Source: Rathayibacter sp. VKM Ac-2754 (GTDB taxonomy: Bacteria; Actinomycetota; Actinomycetes; Actinomycetales; Microbacteriaceae). Taken from it: a stretch of DNA of 64,000 bases. The notes under the pieces are model-generated. The model saw only the letters and a list, made by a program, of their open reading frames with translations. It searched no databases and was not told the origin of the DNA. Made by a program: the position numbers and the translations under genes. The DNA is taken from contig NZ_WUCC01000008.1 in the NCBI RefSeq assembly GCF_009807095.1, positions 62,001 through 126,000 of the forward strand, given 5' to 3'. Positions 20,652-41,795 of this stretch are shown piece after piece (within the stretch, counting starts at the first letter, position 1; every line of letters starts with the position of its first letter).

Positions 20652-20719
20652 CGAGGGGACCCCGGACCGTCGAGACAGCCTGCCCTCGAGGGCGGCCTCG
20701 ACGGTCCGGGGTCCCCTCG
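20652..20719. terminator. Long hairpin, copy 1 of the GGACCGTCGAG family
   Basis: Perfect 23-bp inverted arms (20652-20674 and 20697-20719) enclose a 22-base loop that itself contains the palindrome GCCCTCGAGGGC. It follows the reductase gene and precedes gnd. A second copy with identical 23-22-23 geometry is at 41728-41795. Confidence 0.65.
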
Positions 20720-24060: not shown

Positions 24061-24102
24061 GTGGACCTCGTTACGCCCGCTGCGCGGCCTACTCGATCAG
24101 CA
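24061..24102. repeat. Fragment (one arm) of the REP-pair element
   Basis: About 42 bases matching the complement of the left arm of the 123-bp element, with its GCCCGC-TGC-GCGGGC-type core degraded to CGCCCGCTGCGCGGCC. The other arm is missing. Confidence 0.6.
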
Positions 24103-24117
24103 GAGGCTGCCCCTGCG

Positions 24118-24195
24118 GCTCACGCGCAGCGCGGCCTTCCCCTGCTCGCGCACAGCGCGGCTTTCCCTGGCTCGCGCGCAGCGCGGCCCACCGCC
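24118..24195. repeat. Tandem repeat, three units of 26 bp
   Basis: Units of the form GCTCGCGC-CAGCGCGGC-TTTCCCT start at 24118, 24144 and 24170; the third is incomplete at its end. All three frames of the region look non-coding. Confidence 0.6.
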
Positions 24196-24220
24196 TACCG
24201 CGTCCCCCGGAGCTGAGCCC

Positions 24221-24318
24221 GCGGGTCTCGGGGTGGTCAGCTGCAAGGCGGAGGAGGGCGCGATACCGGCGGTATCGCAACCGACGACAACGCCGCAGAT
24301 GGCCGCCCCGAGGCCCGC
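24221..24318. repeat. Gene-end structured element, copy 1
   Basis: Outer arms 24221-24238 and 24301-24318 pair over 18 bases (three G-T pairs). The inner hairpin is GCGATACC-GGC-GGTATCGC. The element stops five bases from the stop codon of the permease gene that ends at 24324. Copies 2 and 3 are at 30855-30952 and 37135-37236. Confidence 0.7.
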
Positions 24319-24323
24319 GTGCC

Positions 24324-25223
24324 CTACTTGATGGCGCCCTGAGTAACGCCGGACATGACCCAGCGCTGGGTGAAGAGGTAGACGATGATCGCCGGCGCCA
24401 TCGCCATCAGGTAGGAGGCGAAGGCGACGTTGTAGTCGTTGCTGAACTGGGTCTGGAAGATCTTCTGCAGCACCGGCAGCGTCTGCAGCGACGGGTCGGA
24501 GGTGATCAGCGACGGCATCATGAAGTCGTTCCAGGAGGCGAGGAAGGCGAAGATGCCGACCGTCGCGCTCATCGGGGCGAGCAGCGGGAACACCAGCCGC
24601 CAGAACACCTGGTTCGTCGACGCCCCGTCGAGGCGGGCGCTCTCCTCGAGCTCCTCCGGCAGCGAGCGGAGGAACGCGGTGAACAGCATCACGCTGAACG
24701 AGAGCTGGAACATCACGTGCAGGATCGCGACGCCGATCGGGTTGTCGAGGCCGACGAGCCCGGTGAGCGACACCTGCGAGAGCGCGAGCACCGGGAACGG
24801 CAGGAACATCGCGGCCAGCAGGTAGAAGAACGACCAGCGGTAGAAGCGCTTGTCCCAGTTGCGCGAGATGGCGAACGCGGCCAGCGCGCTGAGGACGATG
24901 GTGCCGCCGACCGTGATCGCCGACACGAGCACCGAGATCGCGAAGCCGCGCGGGAAGTCGGTGAGGTTCCACGCCTGCACGAAGCCGTCGACCGAGAACG
25001 GCAGCGGGATCGAGAAGGCGTTGCCGTCGACCGCCTGCGCCGTGGTCTTGAAGGCCATCGTGAGCGTGACCCAGAGCGGGCCGATCACCGAGAGGGCGCA
25101 GATCGCGAGCACGATCGTGAGGAGGAGGCTGGAGCGCTTCCGCCGGGCGCCGCGGCGGGCGTCGGCGTTCACCGCCGGCCGGGTTCCGGGGAGGGACGGG
25201 GCGAGGGGGACCTGGCTGGTCAT
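24324..25223 (-). CDS. Carbohydrate ABC permease, MalG type
   Basis: Inner-membrane subunit of a sugar importer. The 299-residue product has six predicted helices, a large periplasmic loop after the first, and the EAA coupling loop ELEESARLDGASTNQVFWRLVFPLLAP. Its ATG overlaps the stop of the MalF-type gene (TGATG). With the MalF-type protein and the binding lipoprotein it forms a CUT1-family importer. No ATPase gene is nearby, so the system probably shares an MsiK-like ATPase encoded elsewhere (inference). Confidence 0.93.
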   Translation of the reverse strand: MTSQVPLAPSLPGTRPAVNADARRGARRKRSSLLLTIVLAICALSVIGPLWVTLTMAFKTTAQAVDGNAFSIPLPFSVDGFVQAWNLTDFPRGFAISVLVSAITVGGTIVLSALAAFAISRNWDKRFYRWSFFYLLAAMFLPFPVLALSQVSLTGLVGLDNPIGVAILHVMFQLSFSVMLFTAFLRSLPEELEESARLDGASTNQVFWRLVFPLLAPMSATVGIFAFLASWNDFMMPSLITSDPSLQTLPVLQKIFQTQFSNDYNVAFASYLMAMAPAIIVYLFTQRWVMSGVTQGAIK

Positions 25224-26155
25224 CAGAAGGCCGCCTTTCCGCGCGAGACGCGCAGTTGCACGAGCGCGATCACGAGCGCGATGAGGAAGAAGATCGTGGC
25301 GTTGGCCATCTGGTAGGCGTAGTCGCCGCTGGTGAAGCCCGAGAAGATCGTCATCGCGACGCTGCGGGTCGAGGTTCCGGGGCCGCCGTCGGTGAGGCCG
25401 ACGATGATGTCGTACGAGTTGAGGAAGTTCTTGAAGCCGATCACGAGGTTGATCACGACGTAGCCCGCGACGAGCGGGAGGGTGATCGAGCGCAGCTGAC
25501 CCCAGGCGGAGGCGCCGTCGAGCGATGCGGCCTCGTAGACGTCTCCGGGGATGGAGAGCACCCCGGCGATGTAGATCAGCAGGGCGGAGGGGACCGCCTG
25601 CCAGGCGGTCACGATCACGATCGCGAGCCACGCGAGGTTCGGGTCGGCCAGCATGCTGCTGGCGAGCGGCGTGAAGGCGATCGACTCGGCGAAGGCGGGC
25701 AGCGAGTTCGAGAACAGGAAGTTGAAGACGAACGCGATGATGATGCCCGAGACGACCATCGGCAGCACGAACACGGCGCGGAGGGCGACCTTGCCGCGGA
25801 TCTGCGACGTGAGAGCGATCGCGAGCAGGAACGCGACGACGTTCACCGCCACGACGGTGACCAGGGCGAGCAGGACCGTGAAGCCGTAGGAGGCGGCGAT
25901 CGCCGGGTCCGAGAACAGTGCGACGTAGTTCGTCAGTCCGATGAAGGACCACTCGCCGAAGCCGATCGAGTCGGTGAAGCTGAAGAAGACGCCCATCGCC
26001 GCGGGCAGGGTGATCGCGAGCGTGAAGAGCACGAGCGCGGGCAGCAGATACAGGAGGAAGGTCCTGTCGGTGCGCTGCCGGCGCCGTTGCGGGGCGGCCG
26101 GGCGGGGCGCCTCGGTCGGGCGCGCCTCCGCTCGGGTGGGGGCCTGGAGTGCCAT
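25223..26155 (-). CDS. Carbohydrate ABC permease, MalF type
   Basis: The 310-residue membrane protein has an N-terminal cytoplasmic tail rich in Arg and Pro, six helices, and the coupling loop DVYEAASLDGASAWGQLRSITLPLV. It ends with ALVQLRVSRGKAAF. The ATG start is at 26155, about 40 bases after the binding-protein gene. It is the middle gene of the importer operon. Confidence 0.93.
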   Translation of the reverse strand: MALQAPTRAEARPTEAPRPAAPQRRRQRTDRTFLLYLLPALVLFTLAITLPAAMGVFFSFTDSIGFGEWSFIGLTNYVALFSDPAIAASYGFTVLLALVTVVAVNVVAFLLAIALTSQIRGKVALRAVFVLPMVVSGIIIAFVFNFLFSNSLPAFAESIAFTPLASSMLADPNLAWLAIVIVTAWQAVPSALLIYIAGVLSIPGDVYEAASLDGASAWGQLRSITLPLVAGYVVINLVIGFKNFLNSYDIIVGLTDGGPGTSTRSVAMTIFSGFTSGDYAYQMANATIFFLIALVIALVQLRVSRGKAAF

Positions 26156-26193
26156 GGGTGTCTCGTCTCTGAGAGGTGGTGGGAAGCGGGGGG

Positions 26194-27477
26194 TCAGGAG
26201 CGGAACGCGATGCGCGCCCAGTCGGCGTCGACGGTGCGCAGCGTCGACGCGGGGTCGGAGCCGAGCACGATGCCCTGGAGGTAGTTCTGCAGCGGGATGT
26301 TCTGCGGCACGAGCTGCGAGGCCCCGAGGCTGAACGCGGCGCGGTCGTAGAACTCCTGCAGCTCGACGAGGGTCGGCTGCGTCACCGGGGGCGCGTCGGT
26401 CGTGACGCCGAACGCGTTGTTGTCGGCGTTGTACGCGTCGATGATCTCGGGCTGCATCAGGAAGGCCAGGAACTCGCGCGCCGCCTCCTTCTTCTCGGAG
26501 GCCTCGGGGATCCAGAGGGCGAGGTCGACGTTGACCCGCACCCGGCGGTCGTCGGGATCGTCGGTCATCGGCAGCGGGAACGCGCCGATCGAGAGGTCGG
26601 GCGCCGTCTTGGCGATCTCGCTCAGCGCCCACGGACCCTGGAACAGCATCGCGGCCTCGCCGTTCGAGAACGCGAGGTTGCCGTCTCCGTAGGCGCGGCT
26701 CGCCGCGTTGGGGTTCGAGTACGCGGCGACCTGCAGCATCTGGTCGACCGGGGCGGCGAAGTCCTTCTCGAACGACACCGGGGAGCCGGCTCCGACGTCG
26801 GCGCCCTGCTCCTTCAGCTGCGAGAAGAAGGCCTCGAGGTCGACGGTGCCGCCGACGGAGTAGTCGAACAGGCCCTGCGCGACCGTCCACGGATCCTTGT
26901 AGGTGCCGTAGATCGGGGTGATGCCCGCGGCGGTGAGCGCCTCGCAGACCGCGAGGAACTCGGTCCACGTCGTCGGCACCTCGAGCCCCTGCGCCGCGAA
27001 GATCTCGCGGTTGTAGAGCACCGCGGCCATCATCAGCGAGTACGGCAGGACGCTCGTGCGATCCGGGTAGGCCGCGGTCTGCTCGATCAGCGGCTGGATC
27101 GCGGGATTGATCCGCTTCGCCTCCGGCATGTCGGACAGATCGCTGAGGGCGCCCCGCTCGACGAAGCGCGCCACCTCGAAGTTGTAGTTGAGGCAGCCGA
27201 GGTCGGGCGGGTTGCTCCGCACGAAGCCGGCCGAGAGGTTCGAGGAGAAGTCGTGGACGACGCGGATCCGCGACTGCGACGCGTGGAAGCGGTCGATCAC
27301 GTCGCCGAAGTAGCCGATGACCTCGGGCTTGGACTGGAAGAAGGTGATCTCGGTCACGCCGCCCGAGGAGCCGGGCGAGGCGCAGGCCGACAGGCCGAGC
27401 GCCGCGGCGCCGGCTCCCGCGGCCGCGAGGAGGGCGCGCCGGCTGAGTCCGCCGGCGGTGGAGGGTGAAAGGGGCAC
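26194..27477 (-). CDS. Sugar-binding lipoprotein, family 1 solute-binding protein
   Basis: Captures sugar outside the cell for the importer. The 427-residue product has a twin-arginine-like LSRRALLAAAG and a lipobox LSAC with Cys at about residue 32. The mature part shows family features (ITFFQSKPEVIGYFGDVIDRFHASQ; GEAAMLFQGPWALSEI; KKEAAREFLAFLMQPE). The start is GTG after a GGGAG ribosome site. First gene of the operon, divergent from the ROK regulator gene. Confidence 0.93.
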   Translation of the reverse strand: MPLSPSTAGGLSRRALLAAAGAGAAALGLSACASPGSSGGVTEITFFQSKPEVIGYFGDVIDRFHASQSRIRVVHDFSSNLSAGFVRSNPPDLGCLNYNFEVARFVERGALSDLSDMPEAKRINPAIQPLIEQTAAYPDRTSVLPYSLMMAAVLYNREIFAAQGLEVPTTWTEFLAVCEALTAAGITPIYGTYKDPWTVAQGLFDYSVGGTVDLEAFFSQLKEQGADVGAGSPVSFEKDFAAPVDQMLQVAAYSNPNAASRAYGDGNLAFSNGEAAMLFQGPWALSEIAKTAPDLSIGAFPLPMTDDPDDRRVRVNVDLALWIPEASEKKEAAREFLAFLMQPEIIDAYNADNNAFGVTTDAPPVTQPTLVELQEFYDRAAFSLGASQLVPQNIPLQNYLQGIVLGSDPASTLRTVDADWARIAFRS

Positions 27478-27510
27478 GTCGTCGTCTCCCGTGGATCGTG
27501 GATAAGTTGC

Positions 27511-27554
27511 TGTGTCGACTAAATCTAATGAGAAAATCTAGTACGCGATGTACT
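27511..27554. promoter_or_regulatory. AT-rich operator region between importer operon and ROK gene
   Basis: In otherwise GC-rich DNA this stretch holds a direct repeat AAATCTA at 27521-27527 and 27534-27540 and the inverted repeat AGTAC-GCGAT-GTACT at 27540-27554. It lies between divergent genes and is the likely binding region of the ROK regulator. Confidence 0.5.
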
Positions 27555-27596
27555 GTTGCAGCCGATCCGCCCGGGGTCAAGAGGGAGGTGCAGCGG

Positions 27597-28832
27597 ATGT
27601 CCGAGGTCACCACGTTCTCGTTCCAGCGGCGCCGCAACGCCCTCGAGGTCCTCGGGCAGGCCTGGAGCGGAGCGCCCCTCACCGCCTCCGATCTCATCGA
27701 GCGCACCGGACTGACCCGCTCGACCGTGATCGCCGTCTGCGACGACCTCATCGAGCTCGGCTGGCTCCAGGAGCTCGAGAACCAGCGCGCCGCCGGCGAC
27801 TACGTCAAGGGGCGACCGGCCCGCCGGTACTCACTCCGGCGCGACGCAGGGGTGGTCGTCGGCGTCGACGCCGGTCAGCACAGCGTCGGGGTCTTCGTCG
27901 CCGACCTGCTCGGCGAGACCGTCGCCCGGCGCACCGAGCCGGTCGCGCACGAGCACGTCGAGGACATCCCCCGCGAGCACCGCATCGCCGACATCGAGCG
28001 GGTCCTCGACCGCACCCTCGCCGAGGCGGGGATCAGCGACTCCGGTGTCCTCGCGATCACGTTCGGCGTCCCCGCACCGGTCGACGCCCGCGGTCGCTCG
28101 CCCGAGGGCGACAACGACTTCTGGGGCGTGATGAACCCCGGGCTCGCCGACCGGTTCGCCGACCGCGGCTGGGAGGCGGTGGTCGACAACGACGCCAACC
28201 TCGCCGCCCTCGCCGAGGGGTGGCGCGGAGCGGCCGTCGATGCCGACGACTACCTCGCCCTGCTCTCCGGCGAACGGCTCGGCGGAGGCGTCGTCCTGGG
28301 CGGACGCCTGCTGCGCGGTGCCCGCGGACTCACCGGCGAGATGCGCTACCTCGACCTGGTCGAGGGCGTCGGCTCGGCCGAGGGCATCGCGGCGCTCGCC
28401 CGGCACTGGGCGCACGAGGCGCTGGCCGTCCCCGGGCATCCCGCATCGCTCCTCGATCGGAGGGACGCTCCTGGAGCGGAGCAGGTCTTCGCCGCCGCGG
28501 AGGCGGGCGACCCGCTCGCTCAGGAGGTCGTCGACCGGCTCGCCGAGCGCCTGACGAACGTGGCCGCGACCCTGGCGAACCTGCTCGACGTCTCGCTCAT
28601 CGTCGTGGGCGGCGCACTCGCCGCCTCCGCTCAGCCGCTGCTCGCCGACGTGGCACGGCGGCTGGTCGGCCGAGTGCACGCCCCGGCGCCGCGGATCCTG
28701 GCCTCCACACTCGGCGACCAGGCCGTCGCGCTCGGCGCTGTGCGCTCCGGTCTCGACCGGGTGCGAGCGGATCCGCTGTCGCTGCGACTCCCGGGCCGCG
28801 CCCTCGACGAGGTGTCGGGCGCCGGACGCTGA
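27597..28832 (+). CDS. ROK-family transcriptional regulator
   Basis: Probable sugar-responsive regulator of the divergent importer operon. The 411-residue product has an N-terminal winged helix-turn-helix (LTASDLIERTGLTRSTVIAVCDDLIELGWL) and a ROK sugar-kinase-like domain (VVGVDAGQHSVGVFVADL; VVDNDANLAALAEG; RLGGGVVLGG). The CxCGxxGCxE zinc motif of ROK kinases is absent, the region reading RGLTGEMRYLDLVEGVGSAEGI without cysteine, so sugar kinase activity is unlikely. The start is ATG after GAGGGAGG. Confidence 0.9.
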   Translation: MSEVTTFSFQRRRNALEVLGQAWSGAPLTASDLIERTGLTRSTVIAVCDDLIELGWLQELENQRAAGDYVKGRPARRYSLRRDAGVVVGVDAGQHSVGVFVADLLGETVARRTEPVAHEHVEDIPREHRIADIERVLDRTLAEAGISDSGVLAITFGVPAPVDARGRSPEGDNDFWGVMNPGLADRFADRGWEAVVDNDANLAALAEGWRGAAVDADDYLALLSGERLGGGVVLGGRLLRGARGLTGEMRYLDLVEGVGSAEGIAALARHWAHEALAVPGHPASLLDRRDAPGAEQVFAAAEAGDPLAQEVVDRLAERLTNVAATLANLLDVSLIVVGGALAASAQPLLADVARRLVGRVHAPAPRILASTLGDQAVALGAVRSGLDRVRADPLSLRLPGRALDEVSGAGR

Positions 28833-28836
28833 GCGG

Positions 28837-29946
28837 TCAGCGCCGGAACGCGCGGACGATCAGGAGCCCCGCGAGCACGATGGCCACCGCGGCGGCCGTC
28901 GCCGAGGGCAGGGCCAGCAGGAGCAGCAGCGCCATCGCGGCCCAGACGACCGCGGCCCAGGACACTCCCCTCGCGCCCCGGTCGAGGCGGCGGAGGGTCG
29001 ACGCGACCAAGGCCGCGCCGATCGCGAAGGCGAGCAGCGCATCCGCGTCGAGGATCACCACGGCGAGCACCGAGACGAGGCACACCACGAGCTGGACCGC
29101 CGACGGCACGCCGGTCCGGCGGTTGCGGGCGGCGAACGGCCGGGGGATCTCGCCCTCGTCGGCGAGGCGCACCAGCGCCGAGGCGTCCCGTCTCGCCAGC
29201 ACGACGAGCGCGAGGAGGGAGGCGACCACCGCCGCGATCGCGACCGGCACCTCCGCCGCCGTCCCCGCCACGGAGGCGCGCAACGGGGCCGCGGCCGCCG
29301 CGAGCGTCCCGGGCCCCACGAGGAGCAGGAGCCCGGTGCCGATCAGCGCGGCGAGCACGGCGGTGACGGCGATGCGGATCAGCGAGCCGCCGGTCCTCGA
29401 TCCGGGCGCCGCCGTCGGGAAGAGGAGGAGCAGGAAGGCGGCCGCCGAGACCGCCCCCTCGGGACCGCCGAGGATCAGATCGGACGACGCCGCGCTCGGA
29501 GGGGTGACCAGCACGATCACGACCGCGGCGAGGAGGAGGAGTCCGACGAGCGCACCGAGGGTCACCGCCAGGCGCTGGCGGAGCACTCCCCCGCGCACGA
29601 CGAAGAGCGTGACCGCGACCAGGAGGAGGATCGCGACCGGGCGAGCGCTCGCGCCGACCACCGACTCGGCGGCCGTGAGCGCGAGGGCGGCGGAGCCGAG
29701 CGCCCGGCCCGCGAGCCCCAGCCACTCCCCCGTCGGCCCGTCTTCCGCGGCCCGGCCTGCGTCCGCGAGGACGCCGAGGATCGCCGCGACCGTCGCGATC
29801 GCGAGCCCGAGGAGCAGCCACCAGCCGGCCTCGAGCGCCGCGGGCGACCAGACGAGGAACAGCCCCGCGAGCCCCACCACCCACACCGGCTCTCGCGGCG
29901 CACGCTTCGGACCCCCCGTCCGGGTCTGATCCGATCGCACAGCCAC
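28837..29946 (-). CDS. APC-superfamily (amino acid permease-like) membrane protein
   Basis: The 369-residue protein has about eleven hydrophobic segments. The loop LVRLADEGEIPRPFAARNRRTGVPSAVQL matches the conserved cytoplasmic loop after helix 8 of APC-type amino acid permeases (the usual form is MARDG-LP--F---N-RT--P). It is about 100 residues shorter than typical APC permeases, and the substrate-binding GSG-type start of helix 1 is not evident, so transport may be lost or altered. It has a leaderless-type promoter and ends four bases from the convergent ROK gene. Confidence 0.7.
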   Translation of the reverse strand: MAVRSDQTRTGGPKRAPREPVWVVGLAGLFLVWSPAALEAGWWLLLGLAIATVAAILGVLADAGRAAEDGPTGEWLGLAGRALGSAALALTAAESVVGASARPVAILLLVAVTLFVVRGGVLRQRLAVTLGALVGLLLLAAVVIVLVTPPSAASSDLILGGPEGAVSAAAFLLLLFPTAAPGSRTGGSLIRIAVTAVLAALIGTGLLLLVGPGTLAAAAAPLRASVAGTAAEVPVAIAAVVASLLALVVLARRDASALVRLADEGEIPRPFAARNRRTGVPSAVQLVVCLVSVLAVVILDADALLAFAIGAALVASTLRRLDRGARGVSWAAVVWAAMALLLLLALPSATAAAVAIVLAGLLIVRAFRR

Positions 29947-29952
29947 TCGCTC

Positions 29953-29958
29953 ACCCTA
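29953..29958 (-). promoter_or_regulatory. Leaderless-type -10 box of the APC-like gene
   Basis: TAGGGT on the minus strand, then six bases, then GTG. Confidence 0.5.
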
Positions 29959-30066
29959 GCGATCGCCCACCTCGTCGGTCCCGCCGTGGCCGGGAGGCGA
30001 GAGCGGAGCGAAGGTCCCCTCCTCGCCGATCGGCCCACCTCGTCGATGGAGCCCACCCTCTCCTCG

Positions 30067-30822
30067 CTGATCGAGTAGCCCGCGCAGCGGGCGTATCGAG
30101 ATCCACATCCGTCAGAAGGGCAGGGCTGAAGCCTGGTCTGCTGACGCCGGTGGGTCTCGATACGCCCCTGCGGGGCTACTCGACCAGCATGCTCGGCGCC
30201 GGCTTCTCCTGCCGCCCTCCGCGCTGATCGAGTAGCCCGCGCAGCGGGCGTATCGAGATCCACATCCGTCAGAAGGCCGGGACTCAAGCCCGATCTGCTG
30301 ACGCCGGTGGGTCTCGATACGCCCCTGCGGGGCTACTCGACCAGCAGGCTCGGCACGGACGCCGACTTCTCCCGCCGCCCGCTCGCTGATCGAGTAGCCC
30401 GCGCAGCGGGCGTATCGAGATCCACGTCCGTCAGAAGGGCAGCCGAAGCCTGATCTGCTGACGCCGGTGGGTCTCGATACGCCCCTGCAGGGCTACTCGA
30501 CCAGCATGCTCGGCGCCGACTTCTCCCGCCGCCCGCTCGCTGATCGAGTAGCCCGCGCAGCGGGCGTATCGAGATCCACATCCGTCAGAAGGGCAGCCGA
30601 AGCCTGATCTGCTGACGCCGGTGGGTCTCGATACGCCCCTGCGGGGCTACTCGACCAGCAGGCTCGGCACGGACGCCGACTTCTCCCGCCGCCCGCTCGC
30701 TGATCGAGTAGCCCGCGCAGCGGGCGTATCGAGATCCACATCCGTCAGAAGACAAGGGCCGAAGCCTGATCTGCTGACGCTAGTGGGTCTCGATACGCCC
30801 CTGCGGGGCTACTCGACCAGCA
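30067..30822. repeat. Tandem array of five REP-pair (BIME-like) elements
   Basis: Five copies of a 121-123 bp element lie at 30067-30189, 30224-30346, 30386-30506, 30540-30660 and 30700-30822, spaced 154-162 bp start to start with similar spacers (TTCTCCCGCCGCCCGCTCG in most). Each copy has two inverted arms of about 40 bases that match at all but about five positions. Each arm has its own hairpin core: GCCCGC-GCA-GCGGGC on the left, GCCCC-TGC-GGGGC on the right. The roughly 43-base middle has GTCAG and CTGAC boxes. No gene is seen between 29947 and 30951. Confidence 0.85.
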
Positions 30823-30854
30823 GGGCGGAGCCACTCCACGCCCGAAGCCGCTGA

Positions 30855-30952
30855 GCGCGCCTCGGGGCGGTCGATCGCAAGGCGGACGAGGAAGCGATAC
30901 CGGCGGTATCGCGACCGAGGACAACGCCGCAGATGGCCGTGCCGAGACCCGC
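30855..30952. repeat. Gene-end structured element, copy 2
   Basis: Same core as copy 1 (GCGATACC-GGC-GGTATCGC, then GACAACGCCGCAGATGGCC) with weaker outer arms (30855-30872 and 30935-30952). It abuts the prs stop codon directly and lies 33 bases from the REP-pair array. Confidence 0.7.
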
Positions 30953-31929
30953 TACGCGTCGCCGTCGAACATGGAGGTGACGGAGCCGTCATCGAAGACC
31001 TCGTGGATCGCCCGCGCGAGCAGCGGGGCGATGGGGAGGATCGTGAGGCGGTCCCAGCGCTTCTCCTCGGGGAGGGGGAGGGTGTCGGTGACGACGACGG
31101 AGTCGATGAACTCGGAGCTGAGCAGCTCGCGGGCCGGGTCGGAGAAGACCGCATGGGTCGCGGCCACGACGACTCCGACGGCGCCGGCGGCCTTGAGGGC
31201 CTCGGCCGCCTTGGCGATGGTGCGGCCGGTGTCGATGAGGTCGTCGACGAGGAGGCAGACGCGGCCGGCGACCTCTCCGACGATCTCGTGGACCGAGACC
31301 TGGTTGGCGACCTTGGGGTCGCGGCGCTTGTGGATGATCGCGAGCGGCACGCCGAGCTTGTCGCTCCAGATGTCGGCGACGCGGACGCGGCCCATGTCGG
31401 GCGAGACGATGGTGAGGGTCGACGGGTCGAGCTTCTCGCGGAAGTGCTCGAGGAGCACCGGCATGGCGAAGAGGTGGTCGACGGGCCCGTCGAAGAAGCC
31501 CTGGATCTGCGCGGCGTGCAGATCGACCGACATGATCCGGTCGGCTCCGGCGGCCTTGAAGAGGTCGGCGACGAGGCGGGCCGAGATCGGCTCGCGGCCG
31601 CGACCCTTCTTGTCCTGCCGGGCGTAGGGGTAGAACGGTGCGACGACCGTGATGCGCTTGGCCGAGGCGCGCTTGAGCGCGTCGACCATGATGAGCTGCT
31701 CCATGAGCCACTCGTTGATCGGCGAGGTGTGCGACTGCATGACGAACACGTCGCCTCCGCGGACGCTGTCGCCGTAGCGCACGTACAGCTCGCCGTTGGC
31801 GAAGGTGCGGCCCTCGGTGTTCACGAGCTCGGTGCCGAGCTCGGCGGCGACCTGCTCCGCCAGCGCCGGGTGCGCCCTCCCCGAGACGAGGACCAGGCTC
31901 TTCTTGTTGCTGGCGGTAATGGCCGTCAC
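30952..31929 (-). CDS. prs: Ribose-phosphate pyrophosphokinase
   Basis: Makes PRPP from ribose 5-phosphate and ATP for nucleotide, His and Trp synthesis and for the Apt reaction. The 325-residue product has the SGRAHPALAEQVA start, FANGELYVRY, the APFYPYARQDKK catalytic loop, SVDLHAAQIQGFF and the PRPP site VCLLVDDLIDTGRT. The GTG start overlaps the glmU stop by four bases (GTGA), so translation is coupled. Confidence 0.97.
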   Translation of the reverse strand: MTAITASNKKSLVLVSGRAHPALAEQVAAELGTELVNTEGRTFANGELYVRYGDSVRGGDVFVMQSHTSPINEWLMEQLIMVDALKRASAKRITVVAPFYPYARQDKKGRGREPISARLVADLFKAAGADRIMSVDLHAAQIQGFFDGPVDHLFAMPVLLEHFREKLDPSTLTIVSPDMGRVRVADIWSDKLGVPLAIIHKRRDPKVANQVSVHEIVGEVAGRVCLLVDDLIDTGRTIAKAAEALKAAGAVGVVVAATHAVFSDPARELLSSEFIDSVVVTDTLPLPEEKRWDRLTILPIAPLLARAIHEVFDDGSVTSMFDGDA

Positions 31930-33398
31930 TGTGCTCCGCTTCCTCCGGTGGCCGGCTCGGTGCCCGTGGGCTCCGACGCCAGGGCTGCCTCGGCGGCGGT
32001 GGCCGACGCGGTTCCCGGGCGGTGGGTCTGCACCCATCCGGCCATGTTGCGCTGCGGAGCGACGGTGATCCCGAGGGCTCCGGCTGGGATGTCCTTGCGG
32101 ATGACCGTGCCGGCGCCCGTGTACGCTCCGTCGCCGATTCTAACCGGGGCGACGAAGACGTTGTGCGACCCGGCCCGCACATGGGACCCCACTATCGAGG
32201 CGGCCTTGGTCACTCCGTCGTAGTTGGCGAAGATCGAGCCGGCGCCGATGTTCGACTCCTCGCCGATCGTCGCGTCGCCGACGTACGAGAGGTGGGGCAC
32301 CTTCGAGCCGGCGCCGATGGTGGCGTTCTTCGTCTCGACGTAGGTGCCGATCTTGCCGCGGGCGCCGAGGACGGTGCCGGGACGGAGGTAGGAGAACGGC
32401 CCGACCTGGGCGCGGGCGCCGATCACGGCGAGGGTGGCGTCGGAGCGCTTCACCACGGCGTCCTCGCCGATCTCGCACGCGTCGAGGGTGGTGTCGGGGC
32501 CGATGATCGCGCCGGAGGCGATGACGGTCGGTCCCTTGATCTGGGTGCCGGGGAGGATCTCGACGTCGGGTGAGAGGACGGCGTCCACGTCGATCCAGGT
32601 GGTCGCCGGGTCCTGGATCGTGACCCCGGCGAGCTGCCAGCGCCGCACGATGCGGGCATTGAGCTCGAGCGCCGCGTCGGCGAGCTGGGCGCGGTCGTTG
32701 ATGCCGGCGACGAGCCAGCGGTCCTGCACGGGGACGGCCTCGATGGCGCGACCCGCTGCCTTGAGCGCGGCAGCGGCGTCCGTCAGGTACTTCTCGCGCT
32801 GGGCGTTGTCGGTGCCGATCGCGCCGATCACCGAGCGGAGGGCGGCGGCGTCGAACGCGTACACCCCGGCGTTGGTCTCGGTGAGGGCGAGCTCGGCGTC
32901 GCTCGCGTCCTTCTGCTCGACGATGGAGGCGAATCCGCCGTCGCCCGCGCGCACGATGCGCCCGAACCCGGTCGGTTCCTCGAGCACGCACGAGAGCATC
33001 GTCAGCGCGTTCGCAGCGGCGAGGTGCTCGTCGACGAGGCGGCGGAGGGTCGTGGCGTCGAGGAGGGGGACGTCGGCGCTGAGCACCACGACCGTCCCGT
33101 CGAAGTCGTCGGGCAGCGCCGCGAGGCCGAGCTCGACCGCACGGCCGGTGCCGGGCACCTCGTCCTGATCGACCACGAGGGCCGCGGGGGTGTGCTCGAG
33201 GACCGCCTCCGCCACCCGCGCGCGCTCGTGGCGGACGACGGTGACGACGTGGGCGGCGTCGAGGGAGGCCGCGGTGTCGAGGACGTGCCCGAGCAGCGGG
33301 CGACCCGCCAGCCGGTGCAGGACCTTCGGGGTGCGGGACTTCATCCGGGTGCCCTGACCGGCGGCCAGGATCACGACCGCGAGCGTGCTGTCGACCAT
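31926..33398 (-). CDS. glmU: Bifunctional N-acetylglucosamine-1-phosphate uridyltransferase/glucosamine-1-phosphate acetyltransferase
   Basis: Makes UDP-GlcNAc for peptidoglycan. The 490-residue protein has the N-terminal nucleotidyltransferase motif VVILAAGQGTRMKSRTPK and a C-terminal left-handed beta-helix acetyltransferase of hexapeptide repeats (IGEDAVVKRSD; SYVGDATIGEESNIGAGSIFANYDG). The ATG at 33398 is chosen because GGAGGAGAACGAGAC lies immediately upstream; an upstream start would add 17 unrelated residues. A Pro/Thr/Ala-rich tail of about 30 residues follows the enzyme. Confidence 0.96.
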   Translation of the reverse strand: MVDSTLAVVILAAGQGTRMKSRTPKVLHRLAGRPLLGHVLDTAASLDAAHVVTVVRHERARVAEAVLEHTPAALVVDQDEVPGTGRAVELGLAALPDDFDGTVVVLSADVPLLDATTLRRLVDEHLAAANALTMLSCVLEEPTGFGRIVRAGDGGFASIVEQKDASDAELALTETNAGVYAFDAAALRSVIGAIGTDNAQREKYLTDAAAALKAAGRAIEAVPVQDRWLVAGINDRAQLADAALELNARIVRRWQLAGVTIQDPATTWIDVDAVLSPDVEILPGTQIKGPTVIASGAIIGPDTTLDACEIGEDAVVKRSDATLAVIGARAQVGPFSYLRPGTVLGARGKIGTYVETKNATIGAGSKVPHLSYVGDATIGEESNIGAGSIFANYDGVTKAASIVGSHVRAGSHNVFVAPVRIGDGAYTGAGTVIRKDIPAGALGITVAPQRNMAGWVQTHRPGTASATAAEAALASEPTGTEPATGGSGAQ

Positions 33399-33440
33399 GT
33401 CTCGTTCTCCTCCGGGGCCGACCCGCGCGGGTGGACCCTG

Positions 33441-33512
33441 CTCCGCCACCAGGATTCGAACCTGGACCGGACAGCTCCAAAGGCTGCCGTGCTGCCGTTA
33501 CACCATGGCGGA
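33441..33512 (-). tRNA. tRNA-Gln (anticodon TTG)
   Basis: A 72-nt cloverleaf reads TCCGCCATGGTGTAACGG at its 5' end. The acceptor arms TCCGCCA and TGGCGGA pair fully, with discriminator G. The anticodon arm is GCAGC-CTTTGGA-GCTGT, giving anticodon TTG (Gln, CAA/CAG codons), and the T arm contains GGTTCGAATCC. CCA is not encoded. It is upstream of glmU on the same strand. Confidence 0.95.
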
Positions 33513-33590
33513 CCGCGCTCGCGCGCGCCGTCCATCCTGCCATCCGCCCGCGCTCGACCCGCACTCCGCGGCGCCGGGCGGGAGGGTCGA

Positions 33591-33788
33591 GTCCCCCACC
33601 TCCGTCGCCGCGCGGACCGCGATGCGGTGCTCGAGGGCGGCGAGGCCGTCGACGTGCTCGTACAGCGACGGGTTCCCGACCCCGAGCCGATCGGCGACGG
33701 CGCTCGTGCTGAGCCGGCCGAGCCCCCGCTCGTCGGCGAGGGCCGCGCCGGCCTCCGTGACGATCGCGGCGTCGAGCCCGGCTCTAGG
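33591..33788 (-). pseudogene. Truncated TetR-family regulator (DNA-binding part only)
   Basis: Between the hydrolase stop and the tRNA, one frame reads PRAGLDAAIVTEAGAAL... then LSTSAVADRLGVGNPSLYEHVDGL and EHRIAVRAATEVG, a clear TetR helix-turn-helix domain of about 66 residues. The codon before PRAGLD, where homologues have ATG, is GCG. The ligand-binding domain is missing; the frame goes on into non-homologous residues and stops inside the tRNA. The hydrolase TAG stop lies out of frame over its first codons. Probably a relic left by deletion or recombination beside the tRNA gene. Confidence 0.65.
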
Positions 33789-34629
33789 CGCGGCGCGTGG
33801 CGGCGAGGGTCCTGCCGAGGAAGGGCAGGAGCAGTCGGAGCAGCTCGTCGGGGGTCTCGGTGTGCGGGTAGTGGCCGGCGCCGTCGATGACGGCGAGCTC
33901 GCCGAGGCCGGCGGGCAGGTCGGCGAGGATCCGCTCGCCCTCGGCGCGCGGGTCGGCCCAGTCGGGGTCGGCGCCGCCCTCGACGATGAGCACCGGGCAC
34001 GTCACGTTGCCCAGCTGGGCTCCGGCGTCGGCCGGAGTGGTCGTGGTCATGGCCTTCAGCACGCGCATCCGCTCGGGGCGGCTCAGGCTCGTCTCGATCC
34101 GGGCGCGCTCGCGGGCCCAGTCGACGGGCTTCGTGGGGATCGCCAAGTCGAGGTAGGCGAGCCACCCCTTCAGGCTGCCGGTCATCATGACCTTCGCCAG
34201 CTCGATCGTGCCGGCGCGGTGCTTCTTCACCCGCAGGAGCCCCCCGAAGTCCATCGACTGCTTGCGCGTGAAGGGAGCGAGCTCGGCGAGGCCGACGACG
34301 AGGTCGGGCGCCGTGGCGGCGGCGATCGTCGCCGCACCGCCGCTGATCGACTGGCCGACGAGGACGGCCGGGCCGCCGAGGTGGCGGACGAGGGCGACCA
34401 GGTCGCCGGCGATGTCCGTACGGCTGTAGCCCTTCCAGTCGACGCTGGACTCGCCGCATCCGCGGAGGTCGACGTTGGCGACGCGGTAGCCCGCGGCGAC
34501 GAGGGCCGGGACGATGAAGCGGTAGGAGTGGCGGCTGTCGCCCATGCCGTGGGCGAGCACCACGAGGGGTCCCTCTCCCGTCAGGTCGTACGCGATGGTG
34601 CCTTCGTCCAGGGTCAGGAACTCGGTCAT
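33784..34629 (-). CDS. Alpha/beta hydrolase
   Basis: The 281-residue hydrolase has the oxyanion segment VVLAHGMGDSRHSYR, the RVANVDLRGCGES strand, nucleophile elbow LVGQSISGGAA, the acid in VEGGADPDW and the catalytic histidine in DGAGHYPHTE. The elbow reads G-Q-S-I-S where G-x-S-x-G is usual, a mild departure. The ATG at 34629 is used because GGAGGACGAC lies right before it. Substrate unknown. It is divergent from a MarR gene and has a strong, apparently regulated promoter, so induction by a small compound is likely. Confidence 0.9.
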   Translation of the reverse strand: MTEFLTLDEGTIAYDLTGEGPLVVLAHGMGDSRHSYRFIVPALVAAGYRVANVDLRGCGESSVDWKGYSRTDIAGDLVALVRHLGGPAVLVGQSISGGAATIAAATAPDLVVGLAELAPFTRKQSMDFGGLLRVKKHRAGTIELAKVMMTGSLKGWLAYLDLAIPTKPVDWARERARIETSLSRPERMRVLKAMTTTTPADAGAQLGNVTCPVLIVEGGADPDWADPRAEGERILADLPAGLGELAVIDGAGHYPHTETPDELLRLLLPFLGRTLAATRRA

Positions 34630-34662
34630 GTCGTCCTCCAGTCGGCTAATGCGGATAGCCAC

Positions 34663-34691
34663 AAGCTAGAGGCTATAGCCGTTGATGTCAA
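34663..34691 (-). promoter_or_regulatory. Hydrolase promoter with operator palindrome in the spacer
   Basis: On the minus strand TTGACA (34691-34686), a 17-base spacer and TAGCTT (34668-34663) form a textbook promoter, unusual in this window. The spacer contains the perfect palindrome GGCTATAGCC (34671-34680). The -35 box is inside another palindrome, GTTGA-TG-TCAAC (34681-34692). A related GGCTA...TAGCC pair lies at 34644-34660. Confidence 0.75.
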
Positions 34692-34730
34692 CAGCGGTCG
34701 CCGCCGGCACGACGGAGGGCGTCCACCCGC

Positions 34731-34736
34731 CAGAAT
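34731..34736 (+). promoter_or_regulatory. Leaderless-type -10 box of the marR gene
   Basis: CAGAAT, then GGAGGG, then the GTG start at 34743. The six intervening bases look like a ribosome site, but the spacing also fits a transcript starting at the GTG. Confidence 0.45.
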
Positions 34737-34742
34737 GGAGGG

Positions 34743-35234
34743 GTGAGTGCGAATGACGAGGTCGACGGGATCGTCGACGCCTGGGTGCGCGAGCGGCCCG
34801 ACCTCGACTTCACTCCCCTGCAGGTCTTCTCGCGCATGCGGAGGCTCGCCAAGCAGCTCGAGCGCGCCCGCGGCATCGCCTTCGGCCGCTCCGAGCTCGA
34901 GACGTGGGAGTTCGACGTCCTCTCGGCGCTCCGCCGCGCCGGCGCTCCCTACCGGATGAGCCCCAAGCAGCTGCTGCAGGCGACCATGGTCACCAGCGGC
35001 ACCATGACCAACCGCATCGACCGCCTGGTCGAGCGCGACCTGGTCGAGCGCCTCGACGACCCGAACGACGGCCGCGGCGTGCTCGTGCAGATGACGCCGT
35101 CCGGGCTCGCCCGCGTCGACGCCGCGATCACCCGCCTGGTCGACGCCGAGCAGGAGCTGCTGGGCGCGCTCACGCACGCGCAGCAGGAGCGGCTCGCGCA
35201 GCTCCTCCGGAAGCTCTCACTCGACTTCGGCTGA
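34743..35234 (+). CDS. MarR-family transcriptional regulator
   Basis: The 163-residue winged-helix protein has the core ELETWEFDVLSALRRAG, the recognition region LLQATMVTSGTMTNRIDRLVERDLVER and the wing DPNDGRGVLVQMTPSG, in standard MarR order, with dimerisation helices at each end. It is divergent from the alpha/beta hydrolase gene, and the palindromes in the shared gap are its likely targets. The GTG start gives a normal-length N-terminus. Confidence 0.93.
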   Translation: MSANDEVDGIVDAWVRERPDLDFTPLQVFSRMRRLAKQLERARGIAFGRSELETWEFDVLSALRRAGAPYRMSPKQLLQATMVTSGTMTNRIDRLVERDLVERLDDPNDGRGVLVQMTPSGLARVDAAITRLVDAEQELLGALTHAQQERLAQLLRKLSLDFG

Positions 35235-35250
35235 GCGCGACGTCAGCCAG

Positions 35251-35288
35251 GAGTTCCGCTCGCGCACCATGGCGCGCGAGCGGAACTC
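35251..35288. terminator. Two-way hairpin between marR and the ABC-F gene
   Basis: Perfect 15-bp arms (35251-35265 and 35274-35288) enclose ACCATGGC between convergent genes. The central CTCGCGCAC-ATGGCGCGCGA is shared with the hairpin at 57672-57733. Confidence 0.6.
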
Positions 35289-35309
35289 TGAGCCGATGGT
35301 GCGCGGGCC

Positions 35310-37094
<1,785 letters not shown>

Positions 37095-37102
37095 AGGGAT
37101 CC

Positions 37103-37108
37103 AGCCTA
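37103..37108 (-). promoter_or_regulatory. Near-leaderless -10 box of the ABC-F gene
   Basis: TAGGCT on the minus strand, eight bases before the ATG. Confidence 0.4.
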
Positions 37109-37134
37109 GGCGCTCCAGCAGGGCCGGCATCACT

Positions 37135-37236
37135 GAGCGGGCCTCCGCGCGGTGGGATGCAAGGCGGAGGAGGGAGCGATACCGGCGGCATCGCGACCGA
37201 CGACAACGCCGCAGACCGCCCTGCGGAGGCCCGCTC
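37135..37236. repeat. Gene-end structured element, copy 3
   Basis: The outer arms pair perfectly over 14 bp (37135-37148 and 37223-37236) and then imperfectly for about eight more. The inner hairpin is GCGATACC-GGC-GGCATCGC. The right arm overlaps the stop codon of the molybdoenzyme gene ending at 37235. The arm sequence differs from copies 1 and 2, yet pairing is kept. Confidence 0.7.
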
Positions 37237-38770
37237 AGGCCACGGTGATCGTGCGCATGTGCCAGCCGGAGGCTCCGTCGGGGGCGGGGGGCGCCTCCTC
37301 CGAGGTCTGCACCAGGCCCTCGGAGTCGGTCGCGCGGACCAGGAGGACGTGGTCGCCGGCGATCGCCTCCCACTCGTAGACCCACTGGATCCAGGTGTCG
37401 GCGGTGACGGCCTCGGCGAGGCGCGCGGGCTGCCACACGCCGCCGTCGACCTGCACCTCCACGCCTGCGATGCCGGTGTGCGGCGCCCAGGCGACTCCGG
37501 CGACCGCGACGGTGCCGGCGGCGACCGCCTGGCCCTGCCGTGGCACGTCGATCCGGGACTCGATCTTGATCGGGCCGCGCTCGGTCCAGCCGCGAGTCGA
37601 CCAGTAGGCGACGTCGTCGGCGAAGGTCGTGACCTTGAGCTCGGTGACCCACTTCGTCGCCGAGACGTAGCCGTAGAGCCCGGGCACGACCAGGCGCGCC
37701 GGGAAGCCGTGCTCGACCGGGAGCGGCTCGCCGTTCATCCCGACCGCCACGATGCTCGGCCGGCCCTCGTCCTGCAGGACCTCGAGCGGGCTGGAGGCCG
37801 TGAATCCGTCGACACTGCGCGAGAGGACCATGTCGGCGCCCGCGAGCGGCCGGGCGCGGGCGAGGAGGTCGCGGATCGGGTAGCCGAGCCAGAGAGCGGT
37901 GCCGATCAGGTCGCCGCCGACCTCGTTCGAGACGCACGAGAGGGTGACCAGGTGCTCCTCGAGCGGGAGGGCGAGCAGCTCGTCCCAGGTGATCGTCACC
38001 TCCTCCTCGACCATGCCCGTGATGCGGAGCGACCAGTCGGCCGGGTCGACGGACGGCACCGAGAGCGCGGTGTCGATCCGGTAGAAGTCGGCGTTCGACG
38101 TCAGGTAGGGCGTGATCCCCTCGATGTCGTCGAGCATCGCCGCGGCTGGGACGGCGGGCGCGGTGCTCGCGGGGGCGGGCAGCTTCACGGCCTCCCGCAC
38201 GGCGGTCACGGCGGCGGAGGCGGCGGTCACCATCCGGGCACCGACGCCCACCACGACGGCGGCGGCGCCGGCGATGCCGACCAGGCGGAGGAAGGAGCGG
38301 CGGTCGGTGCCGCCGCGCGCGGGCTCCTCCTCCCAGCCGCGGAGGCGGGCGGCGGCGGCCCGCAGGAACGCGGCGCCCACGACCATGCCGGCGACGCTGG
38401 GGGCGGCGGCGAGACCCGACGCGCCCTCGCGGGTGACGGCGGCCAGGGCGCCCAGGCCCGCGACGGCGGCGAGCACGAGCACGCCTAGCGGAGGCCTGCG
38501 GTACTCGAGCAGTCCGGCCGCGACCGCGAGGAGCGCGACGGCGACGCCCACCGACACCAGCAGGACGACCTTGTCGCCCGTGCCGAACAGCGCGATGACG
38601 GTGTCCTTGACGCCGGGCGGCACGATGTCGATGACGAAGCCGCCGACGGCGACGAGCGGGCTGCCTCCCGCGCCGGTGAACACGGCCACGAGCTCGGCGC
38701 TCGCAAGGGCGACTGCGGCGGCGACGATCCCCGAGAGGATCGCGAGGAGTGCGGCTCGTCTGGGGGACAT
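37235..38770 (-). CDS. Membrane-anchored sulfite oxidase-family molybdoenzyme
   Basis: Mo-cofactor oxidoreductase working at the outer face of the membrane. The 511-residue protein has four or five N-terminal membrane helices (residues 5-140), then a twin-arginine segment TDRRSFLRLVG (about 155-165) with another hydrophobic stretch, then the molybdopterin domain with the Mo-ligand cysteine at about residue 279 (HLVTLSCVSNEVGG), FPARLVVPGLYGYVSATKWV, and a C-terminal immunoglobulin-like dimerisation domain. No electron-transfer partner gene is adjacent, and the substrate is unknown. The ATG at 38770 is favoured over an upstream in-frame GTG because a TAGAGT box is seven bases before it. Confidence 0.9.
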   Translation of the reverse strand: MSPRRAALLAILSGIVAAAVALASAELVAVFTGAGGSPLVAVGGFVIDIVPPGVKDTVIALFGTGDKVVLLVSVGVAVALLAVAAGLLEYRRPPLGVLVLAAVAGLGALAAVTREGASGLAAAPSVAGMVVGAAFLRAAAARLRGWEEEPARGGTDRRSFLRLVGIAGAAAVVVGVGARMVTAASAAVTAVREAVKLPAPASTAPAVPAAAMLDDIEGITPYLTSNADFYRIDTALSVPSVDPADWSLRITGMVEEEVTITWDELLALPLEEHLVTLSCVSNEVGGDLIGTALWLGYPIRDLLARARPLAGADMVLSRSVDGFTASSPLEVLQDEGRPSIVAVGMNGEPLPVEHGFPARLVVPGLYGYVSATKWVTELKVTTFADDVAYWSTRGWTERGPIKIESRIDVPRQGQAVAAGTVAVAGVAWAPHTGIAGVEVQVDGGVWQPARLAEAVTADTWIQWVYEWEAIAGDHVLLVRATDSEGLVQTSEEAPPAPDGASGWHMRTITVA

Positions 38771-38777
38771 GAGCGGC

Positions 38778-38783
38778 ACTCTA
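38778..38783 (-). promoter_or_regulatory. Leaderless-type -10 box of the molybdoenzyme gene
   Basis: TAGAGT, then seven bases, then ATG on the minus strand. It overlaps an upstream in-frame GTG at 38779, which decides against that GTG as the start. Confidence 0.5.
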
Positions 38784-41727: not shown

Positions 41728-41795
41728 CGAGGGAACCCCGGACCGTCGAGGCCGCCCGGTGGTGCCGGCTCCCTCGACGGTCCGGGGTTCCCTCG
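41728..41795. terminator. Long hairpin, copy 2 of the GGACCGTCGAG family
   Basis: Perfect 23-bp arms (41728-41750, 41773-41795) with a 22-base loop. Compared with copy 1 at 20652-20719, one base pair has changed on both sides (GGGGACC to GGGAACC, matched in the other arm), so pairing is preserved. It lies past the metG stop codon. Confidence 0.65.

Follow-up and report, generated by a model that had tools for sequence, protein, structure and literature searches.

The question raised by this locus, a 64,000-nucleotide stretch of the genome of Rathayibacter sp. VKM Ac-2754 (hereafter the window), is what a palindromic element of about 100 bp does at the 3' ends of three minus-strand genes with no shared function. 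The initial annotation had recorded three copies, next to a permease gene, prs, and a molybdoenzyme gene, and had suggested that they are a 3'-untranslated region (3'-UTR) module of those genes, whether a terminator, an mRNA stability element, or a protein-binding site, and possibly mobile. A covariance model recovers all three copies at their recorded positions, all on the plus strand, and each has its right arm at the stop codon of its gene. The structure that is kept, however, is that of the strand opposite to the genes. We tentatively propose, with a probability of about 35%, that the element is related to miniature transposons (MITEs) and has been domesticated at gene 3' borders, where its antisense strand would act in cis, perhaps to counter antisense transcription.

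The element is a palindromic module of about 106 nt, in which an outer helix of 23 bp and nearly free sequence encloses a fixed core. Inward from this helix come a mismatch that is mostly purine-purine, 4 bp, an AA bulge, and GGCG paired to CGCC. Next are a CAA bulge with two tandem G-A motifs that flank a single G-C pair, then GG/CC, and finally an apical hairpin of 8 bp. What appears to be an internal loop is in fact this pair of tandem G-A motifs. The arrangement differs from that of a kink-turn, in which a bulge of 3 nt precedes the tandem G-A, on its 5' side, in the bulged strand, whereas the order here is GA, then the CAA bulge, then the stem. BLAST found 15 strong copies in the 3.97-Mb, 24-contig source genome, and their alignment is almost gapless. 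With the paired positions taken from the fold, standard pairs occupy 92.9% of the alignment cells, versus 73.5% in shuffles, and changes on both sides occur at 31 of the 42 pairs. The covariation score was 0.541, compared with 0.178 in shuffles, none of 500 shuffles reached it, and sliding the pairing register destroyed the signal. The view that the outer arms differ in sequence but keep their pairing is thus correct as far as pairing goes, although the arm sequences of copies 1 and 2 are, by eye in the alignment, partly alike.

Within Rathayibacter, the element is both widespread and one-sided. The covariance model matched 18 of 60 genomes, comprising 15 of 15 Rathayibacter and 3 of 45 others. 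It gave 19 matches in the source genome, of which the 15 listed are the BLAST copies, and 187 summed over the 15 Rathayibacter genomes; since a palindrome can match on both strands, double counts may be included in the 19 and possibly also in the 187. Placement was assessed with the model over 100 loci drawn from the best-scoring listed matches, a sample in which weak copies are under-represented; removal of 7 opposite-strand re-reads from 119 matches left 112 copies. Genes were called with a codon-usage caller trained on the window. In 109 of the 112 copies, the gene to the right is encoded on the minus strand, while the gene to the left may be on either strand (plus in 58, minus in 51, absent in 3). 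The right edge lies no more than 10 nt from a minus-strand stop in 85 copies, whereas the mirror arrangement, a left edge at a plus-strand stop, is found in 2, so that the placement seen in the window extends across the genus. Edge-to-stop distances of about 83 to 237 nt belong mostly to the outer copies of tandem arrays. Such arrays (L017/L018, L019/L020, L093, L098, L121, and L125) repeat arm plus core, which suggests duplication through the hairpin.

Single-linkage clustering at >55% identity groups the 109 right-hand genes into 24 families, 20 of them represented by two or more copies. Judged by eye from their C-terminal ends, they include a response regulator and GreA-like, HU-like, and GuaA-like proteins, among others; domain tests (e.g., Pfam) covered the genes of the window, and all other gene names are given by eye. 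The same genes bear the element across Rathayibacter species. Most of the listed genes within a family are more than 85% identical (lowest, 68%), yet both arms of the adjoining element change together, in a compensatory manner. In the 95 parsable copies among the 98 highest-scoring, the four G-A positions are kept as G-A or A-G in 91, 93, 87, and 93, the pair between the two motifs is G-C in 88 copies, with the swapped form, C-G, in 5, and the pair that follows is G-C in 83 copies and A-U in 6.

The strand that folds can be read from the wobble pairs. At the outer 23 pairs of the 98 highest-scoring copies, 1,928 cells are Watson-Crick pairs, 239 are wobble pairs on the plus strand, 27 are wobble pairs on the other strand, and 60 are of other kinds. 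The excess of plus-strand wobble is found in 23 of the 24 gene families, the remaining, single-copy family being tied at 1:1. The plus strand is also the more stable in 98/98 copies, with a mean gain of 12.8 kcal/mol under RNA parameters and 6.8 kcal/mol under DNA parameters. A control set of 58 ordinary hairpins near 224 stops showed no strand bias (wobble, 49 versus 48). The plus strand is antisense to the right-hand gene, and because the folding strand is opposite to the message of the gene, the element is unlike an ordinary terminator. A mutation bias between replication strands is disfavoured as the source of the wobble asymmetry: by hand, with the origin at dnaA and the terminus assumed opposite, 41 of 44 loci in five genomes were found in leading-strand orientation, but the two gene groups with lagging-strand cases retain the plus-strand bias (10:0 and 9:1), which argues that replication does not explain it.

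A scan of GTDB genome contigs with the core pattern yielded a wide set of at least 117 stretches, with the taxon seen for 80. Among the matches listed are many Streptomyces, together with Nocardioides, Micromonospora, Pseudonocardia, Kribbella, Gordonia, and other Actinobacteria, seven Lachnospiraceae or Clostridiales, and two betaproteobacterial contigs (one of them Sulfuritalea); L228, L249, and L250 were assigned to Firmicutes by composition and sequence. The core is common to the Rathayibacter element, to the MITE-like actinobacterial palindromes, and to the palindromes of Firmicutes and betaproteobacteria. As the core bases of the wide set are mostly fixed by the search pattern, only the free ones are informative; the two G-A positions not both fixed by it are kept in 110 and 110 of 117 loci, and of the 100 distinct cells listed for the mismatch beside the 4-bp stem, 57 are A-G or G-A. 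In a fixed register, the arms of 111 distinct sequences are 77.2% paired, versus 54.0% when shuffled (maximum, 56.3%), and wobble pairs number 366 on the plus and 79 on the minus strand, with 161 versus 16 in Streptomyces alone. Nine Streptomyces plasmid records match. Carriage by phages was rejected, as phage records gave no match and viral contigs a single exact core match (L379, 711-762).

We sorted 52 loci as neither Streptomyces, Rathayibacter, Firmicutes, nor betaproteobacteria (21 named other Actinobacteria and 31 of unseen taxon), and 11 of them have a stop codon within the right arm, against 1 with a stop within the left arm. The named genera with a stop in the right arm are Nocardioides, Actinocatenispora, Actinopolymorpha, Pseudonocardia, Sphaerimonospora, and Marmoricola, and the one-sided stop-codon mode is therefore not confined to Rathayibacter. 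The three matches of the Marmoricola genome (L295, L305, and L316) all lie at gene 3' ends with Rathayibacter-like polarity, beside genes that resemble rpsI, groES, and tsf by eye.

In Streptomyces, the core is the centre of a longer palindrome (166 bp) bounded by CTAG or a near form; elsewhere, the ends are of the TAA, TTA, or CTAA types. Thirty loci in three Streptomyces genomes resolve into 25 distinct elements. Of these, 7 measure 166 bp and contain the core, and the other 18 measure 48 to 91 bp; one of the 18 retains part of the core and the rest lack it. These short palindromes were rejected as ancestors, since each looks like a 166-bp form that has suffered an internal deletion. For one element lying between two convergent Streptomyces genes that both end at CTAG, the flanks were matched in 103 of 121 genomes, and all 30 relatives examined (30/30) lacked the element; in one of them (L350), the junction is equal in length and has just one CTAG. 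The Streptomyces form thus inserts at CTAG, and the one CTAG of the empty site is as in MITEs. A target of this type would suit IS630- or IS5-like transposons, which are candidate insertion-sequence families. As for an autonomous partner, no pair of ends at the length of an insertion sequence occurs among the matches listed for the three Streptomyces genomes, and two annotated plasmid stretches bearing the element contain no transposase.

Bacterial MITEs (RUP, Correia/NEMIS, ERIC, and QMITE2) are described (PMC2229807 and PMC10969869) as palindromic, about 100 to 200 bp long, with TA ends and stable stem-loop transcripts, and as mostly intergenic, QMITE2 being found mainly in 3' UTRs. The element resembles them as a short noncoding palindrome, with terminal inverted repeats in the 166-bp Streptomyces form and only the arms of about 23 bp in Rathayibacter. 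It differs from them in that its centre is conserved across phyla while its ends are variable, and in that the Rathayibacter copies sit at stops in one polarity, with no terminal repeat beyond the arms and no target duplication seen. The earlier suggestion of mobility is supported by a mobile relative in Streptomyces. At the prs locus, the element is present in 4 of 15 Rathayibacter genomes and absent from 11, the intergenic DNA being too diverged for the junction to be seen. By eye, the empty prs sites hold no ready-made hairpin and the arms share a loose consensus with the Streptomyces arms, and on these two grounds we rejected, as a general origin, the insertion of the core into ready-made terminator hairpins.

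The strongest rival is only slightly less probable than the reading that we prefer: the element would be a selfish mobile palindrome that survives only where it is harmless, the folded single strand serving its own transposition and the orientation reflecting what genes tolerate. The MITE-like Streptomyces form with its CTAG ends, empty site, and shortened derivatives is what such a palindrome would look like; 10 other element-bearing genomes have between 2 and 25 matches each, and the plus-strand wobble bias extends to Streptomyces. Rathayibacter copies, however, persist at the same genes across species with their arms rematched by compensatory change, which abandoned copies should not show. 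Nor does targeting of CTAG or TA account for their placement at stops: the stops at Rathayibacter elements are TGA in 61 cases, TAG in 25, and TAA in 6, versus totals of 208, 56, and 18 when every called gene of these loci is counted, so that TAG and TAA are not clearly enriched (31/92 versus 74/282).

That the element is a gene-sense 3'-UTR module, whether a terminator, a ribosome-release hairpin, or an mRNA-stabilising hairpin, we regard as improbable. The position at the stop codon and the polarity relative to the gene are those that this explanation calls for, and a strong fold is still available to the gene-sense strand (-65.1 kcal/mol in copy 1, for example). Like an intrinsic terminator, the element is a strong hairpin after a gene. 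Its best fold is, on the contrary, on the other strand, as the wobble asymmetry of the gene families indicates, the tandem G-A becomes T-C on the gene-sense strand, and there is no U-tract on that side, the left flanks of 99 copies being C-rich on the plus strand without a T-run on the minus strand. Moreover, 37 of the 58 ordinary control hairpins begin 8 to 20 nt past the stop, whereas the element overlaps or abuts it.

Structures used as single-stranded DNA offer a further comparison. REP/BIME elements are short bulged hairpins present in many copies, often at gene 3' ends; compared with those associated with RAYT, the element is longer, has fewer copies, and occurs without a Y1 transposase in the 8 Rathayibacter genomes searched for one. 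Integron attC sites are imperfect palindromes at the 3' ends of cassettes, largely free in sequence, which fold on the antisense strand and have conserved R and L boxes at their outer ends. The element is likewise an imperfect palindrome at a gene 3' end that folds on the antisense strand, but it adjoins ordinary chromosomal genes, its inner core is conserved while its outer arms vary most, and attC models were covered by the Rfam run only. A DNA hairpin formed by the gene's template strand, which would serve a recombinase or replication in the manner of attC or REP, is the least probable of the explanations considered: DNA energy parameters favour the plus strand in every copy, attC provides a precedent, leading-strand orientation predominates, and a Y1 transposase (PF01797) is encoded in 4 of 8 other element-bearing genomes, but none was found in the 8 Rathayibacter genomes searched (0/8), variable ends around a conserved centre are the reverse of attC, and the lagging-strand gene groups keep their plus-strand bias.

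In our preferred reading, the element works in cis, through a structure that the antisense strand of the gene adopts. The structure would most likely form in RNA, from transcription beyond the gene that runs back into its 3' end, and the hairpin may stop or mark this antisense transcript at the gene border. Such a role would explain why the polarity tracks the right-hand and not the left-hand gene, and why the arms are selected on the plus strand. We lean towards RNA rather than single-stranded DNA as the acting form because of the missing Y1 transposase in the 8 Rathayibacter genomes and because RNA often contains tandem G-A motifs, although these are also stable in DNA.

Several observations weigh against an antisense border. 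Among 99 left flanks we saw no conserved promoter-like sequence for a plus-strand transcript, and no U-tract is possible on the plus-strand side, because coding sequence starts there. The right-hand gene is on the plus strand in 3 of 112 copies (L088 (2366), L097, and L090). Another stem is found in 35 of 99 left flanks, versus 5 of 99 mononucleotide-shuffled ones, in some cases with a terminator-like tail. Many copies may therefore be part of the 3' UTR of the gene that they adjoin, with the stop codon on one side and the terminator of that gene on the other. Outside Rathayibacter, stops near the element lack strict polarity in Streptomyces, where, in 46 loci, a stop lies 13 to 60 nt past the right arm in 23, past the left arm in 12, and inside the arms in none. 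Finally, the fixed-register wobble bias is absent from Firmicutes (23:19) and from the two betaproteobacterial loci (4:6); when Firmicutes and betaproteobacterial loci are folded with their flanks, the plus strand is the better in 11 of 12.

The three copies of the window and the genes beside them are given in Table 1. Copy 3 takes up the space between two successive minus-strand genes, from the stop codon of the first to the called start of the second, and would therefore also be a leader of the downstream gene.

Table 1. Copies of the element in the window and adjoining genes
Feature	Position	Strand	Remarks
Copy 1 of the element	24215..24324	+	Outer arms 24217-24239 / 24300-24322; covariance model, covariation
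Core of copy 1	24243..24296	+	GCAAGGCG, tandem-GA strand GAGGAGG (24251-24257), apical hairpin 24260-24278, CCGACGACAA (24281-24290), CGCCGC; invariant positions from 15-copy alignment
ABC transporter permease gene (PF00528)	24324..25223	-	Stop TAG starts just past copy 1
Copy 2 of the element	30849..30958	+	Arms imperfect; middle pair of the tandem G-A motifs is C-G
prs gene (ribose-phosphate pyrophosphokinase)	30952..31929	-	Stop TAG within right arm of copy 2
Copy 3 of the element	37131..37240	+	Spans gap between two minus-strand genes
Molybdopterin oxidoreductase gene (PF00174)	37235..38779	-	Stop TGA within right arm of copy 3
ABC ATPase gene	35310..37133	-	Called start at left edge of copy 3

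Other repeats occur in the same surroundings. Arrays of small hairpins of the form GCTCG-N-GCA-N'-CGGCC, at 24100-24180 of the window and in the left flanks of many Rathayibacter copies (e.g., L063 and L141), have stems that seem to change in matched fashion and constitute a second repeat family of these intergenic regions. A dispersed palindrome, approximately GGTCTCGATACGCC...GGGCTACTCGACCAGCA, is found at 30787-30822 of the window and in the left flanks of L013, L083, and L118; it adjoins several elements and some of the empty prs sites. A long palindrome, approximately CGAGGGRACCCCGGACCGTCGAG..., follows gene ends at 20652-20719 and 41728-41793 of the window, and a similar one lies beside L016 and L038.

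The initial annotation knew no named family for the element, and neither do we: at gathering scores, Rfam 15 reports only a tRNA in the window, with nothing at E values up to 1 for 24150-24400, and searches of the literature by sequence words and topic found no description of it. A less probable extension is that all these palindromes form a single family of structured single-stranded elements that crosses phyla, one that has spread in the form of palindromic transposons and has been domesticated more than once at stops, where the antisense strand would serve as a border against antisense transcription. The element itself is a structured one with near-perfect covariation, absent from Rfam 15 and common to Actinobacteria and Firmicutes, whose folded strand, opposite to the gene that it marks, is unpredicted by the standard mechanisms acting at 3' ends. 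Its orthologous copies constitute a natural series for how a mobile palindrome becomes a host element, and they offer a testable case of antisense-strand function at gene ends.
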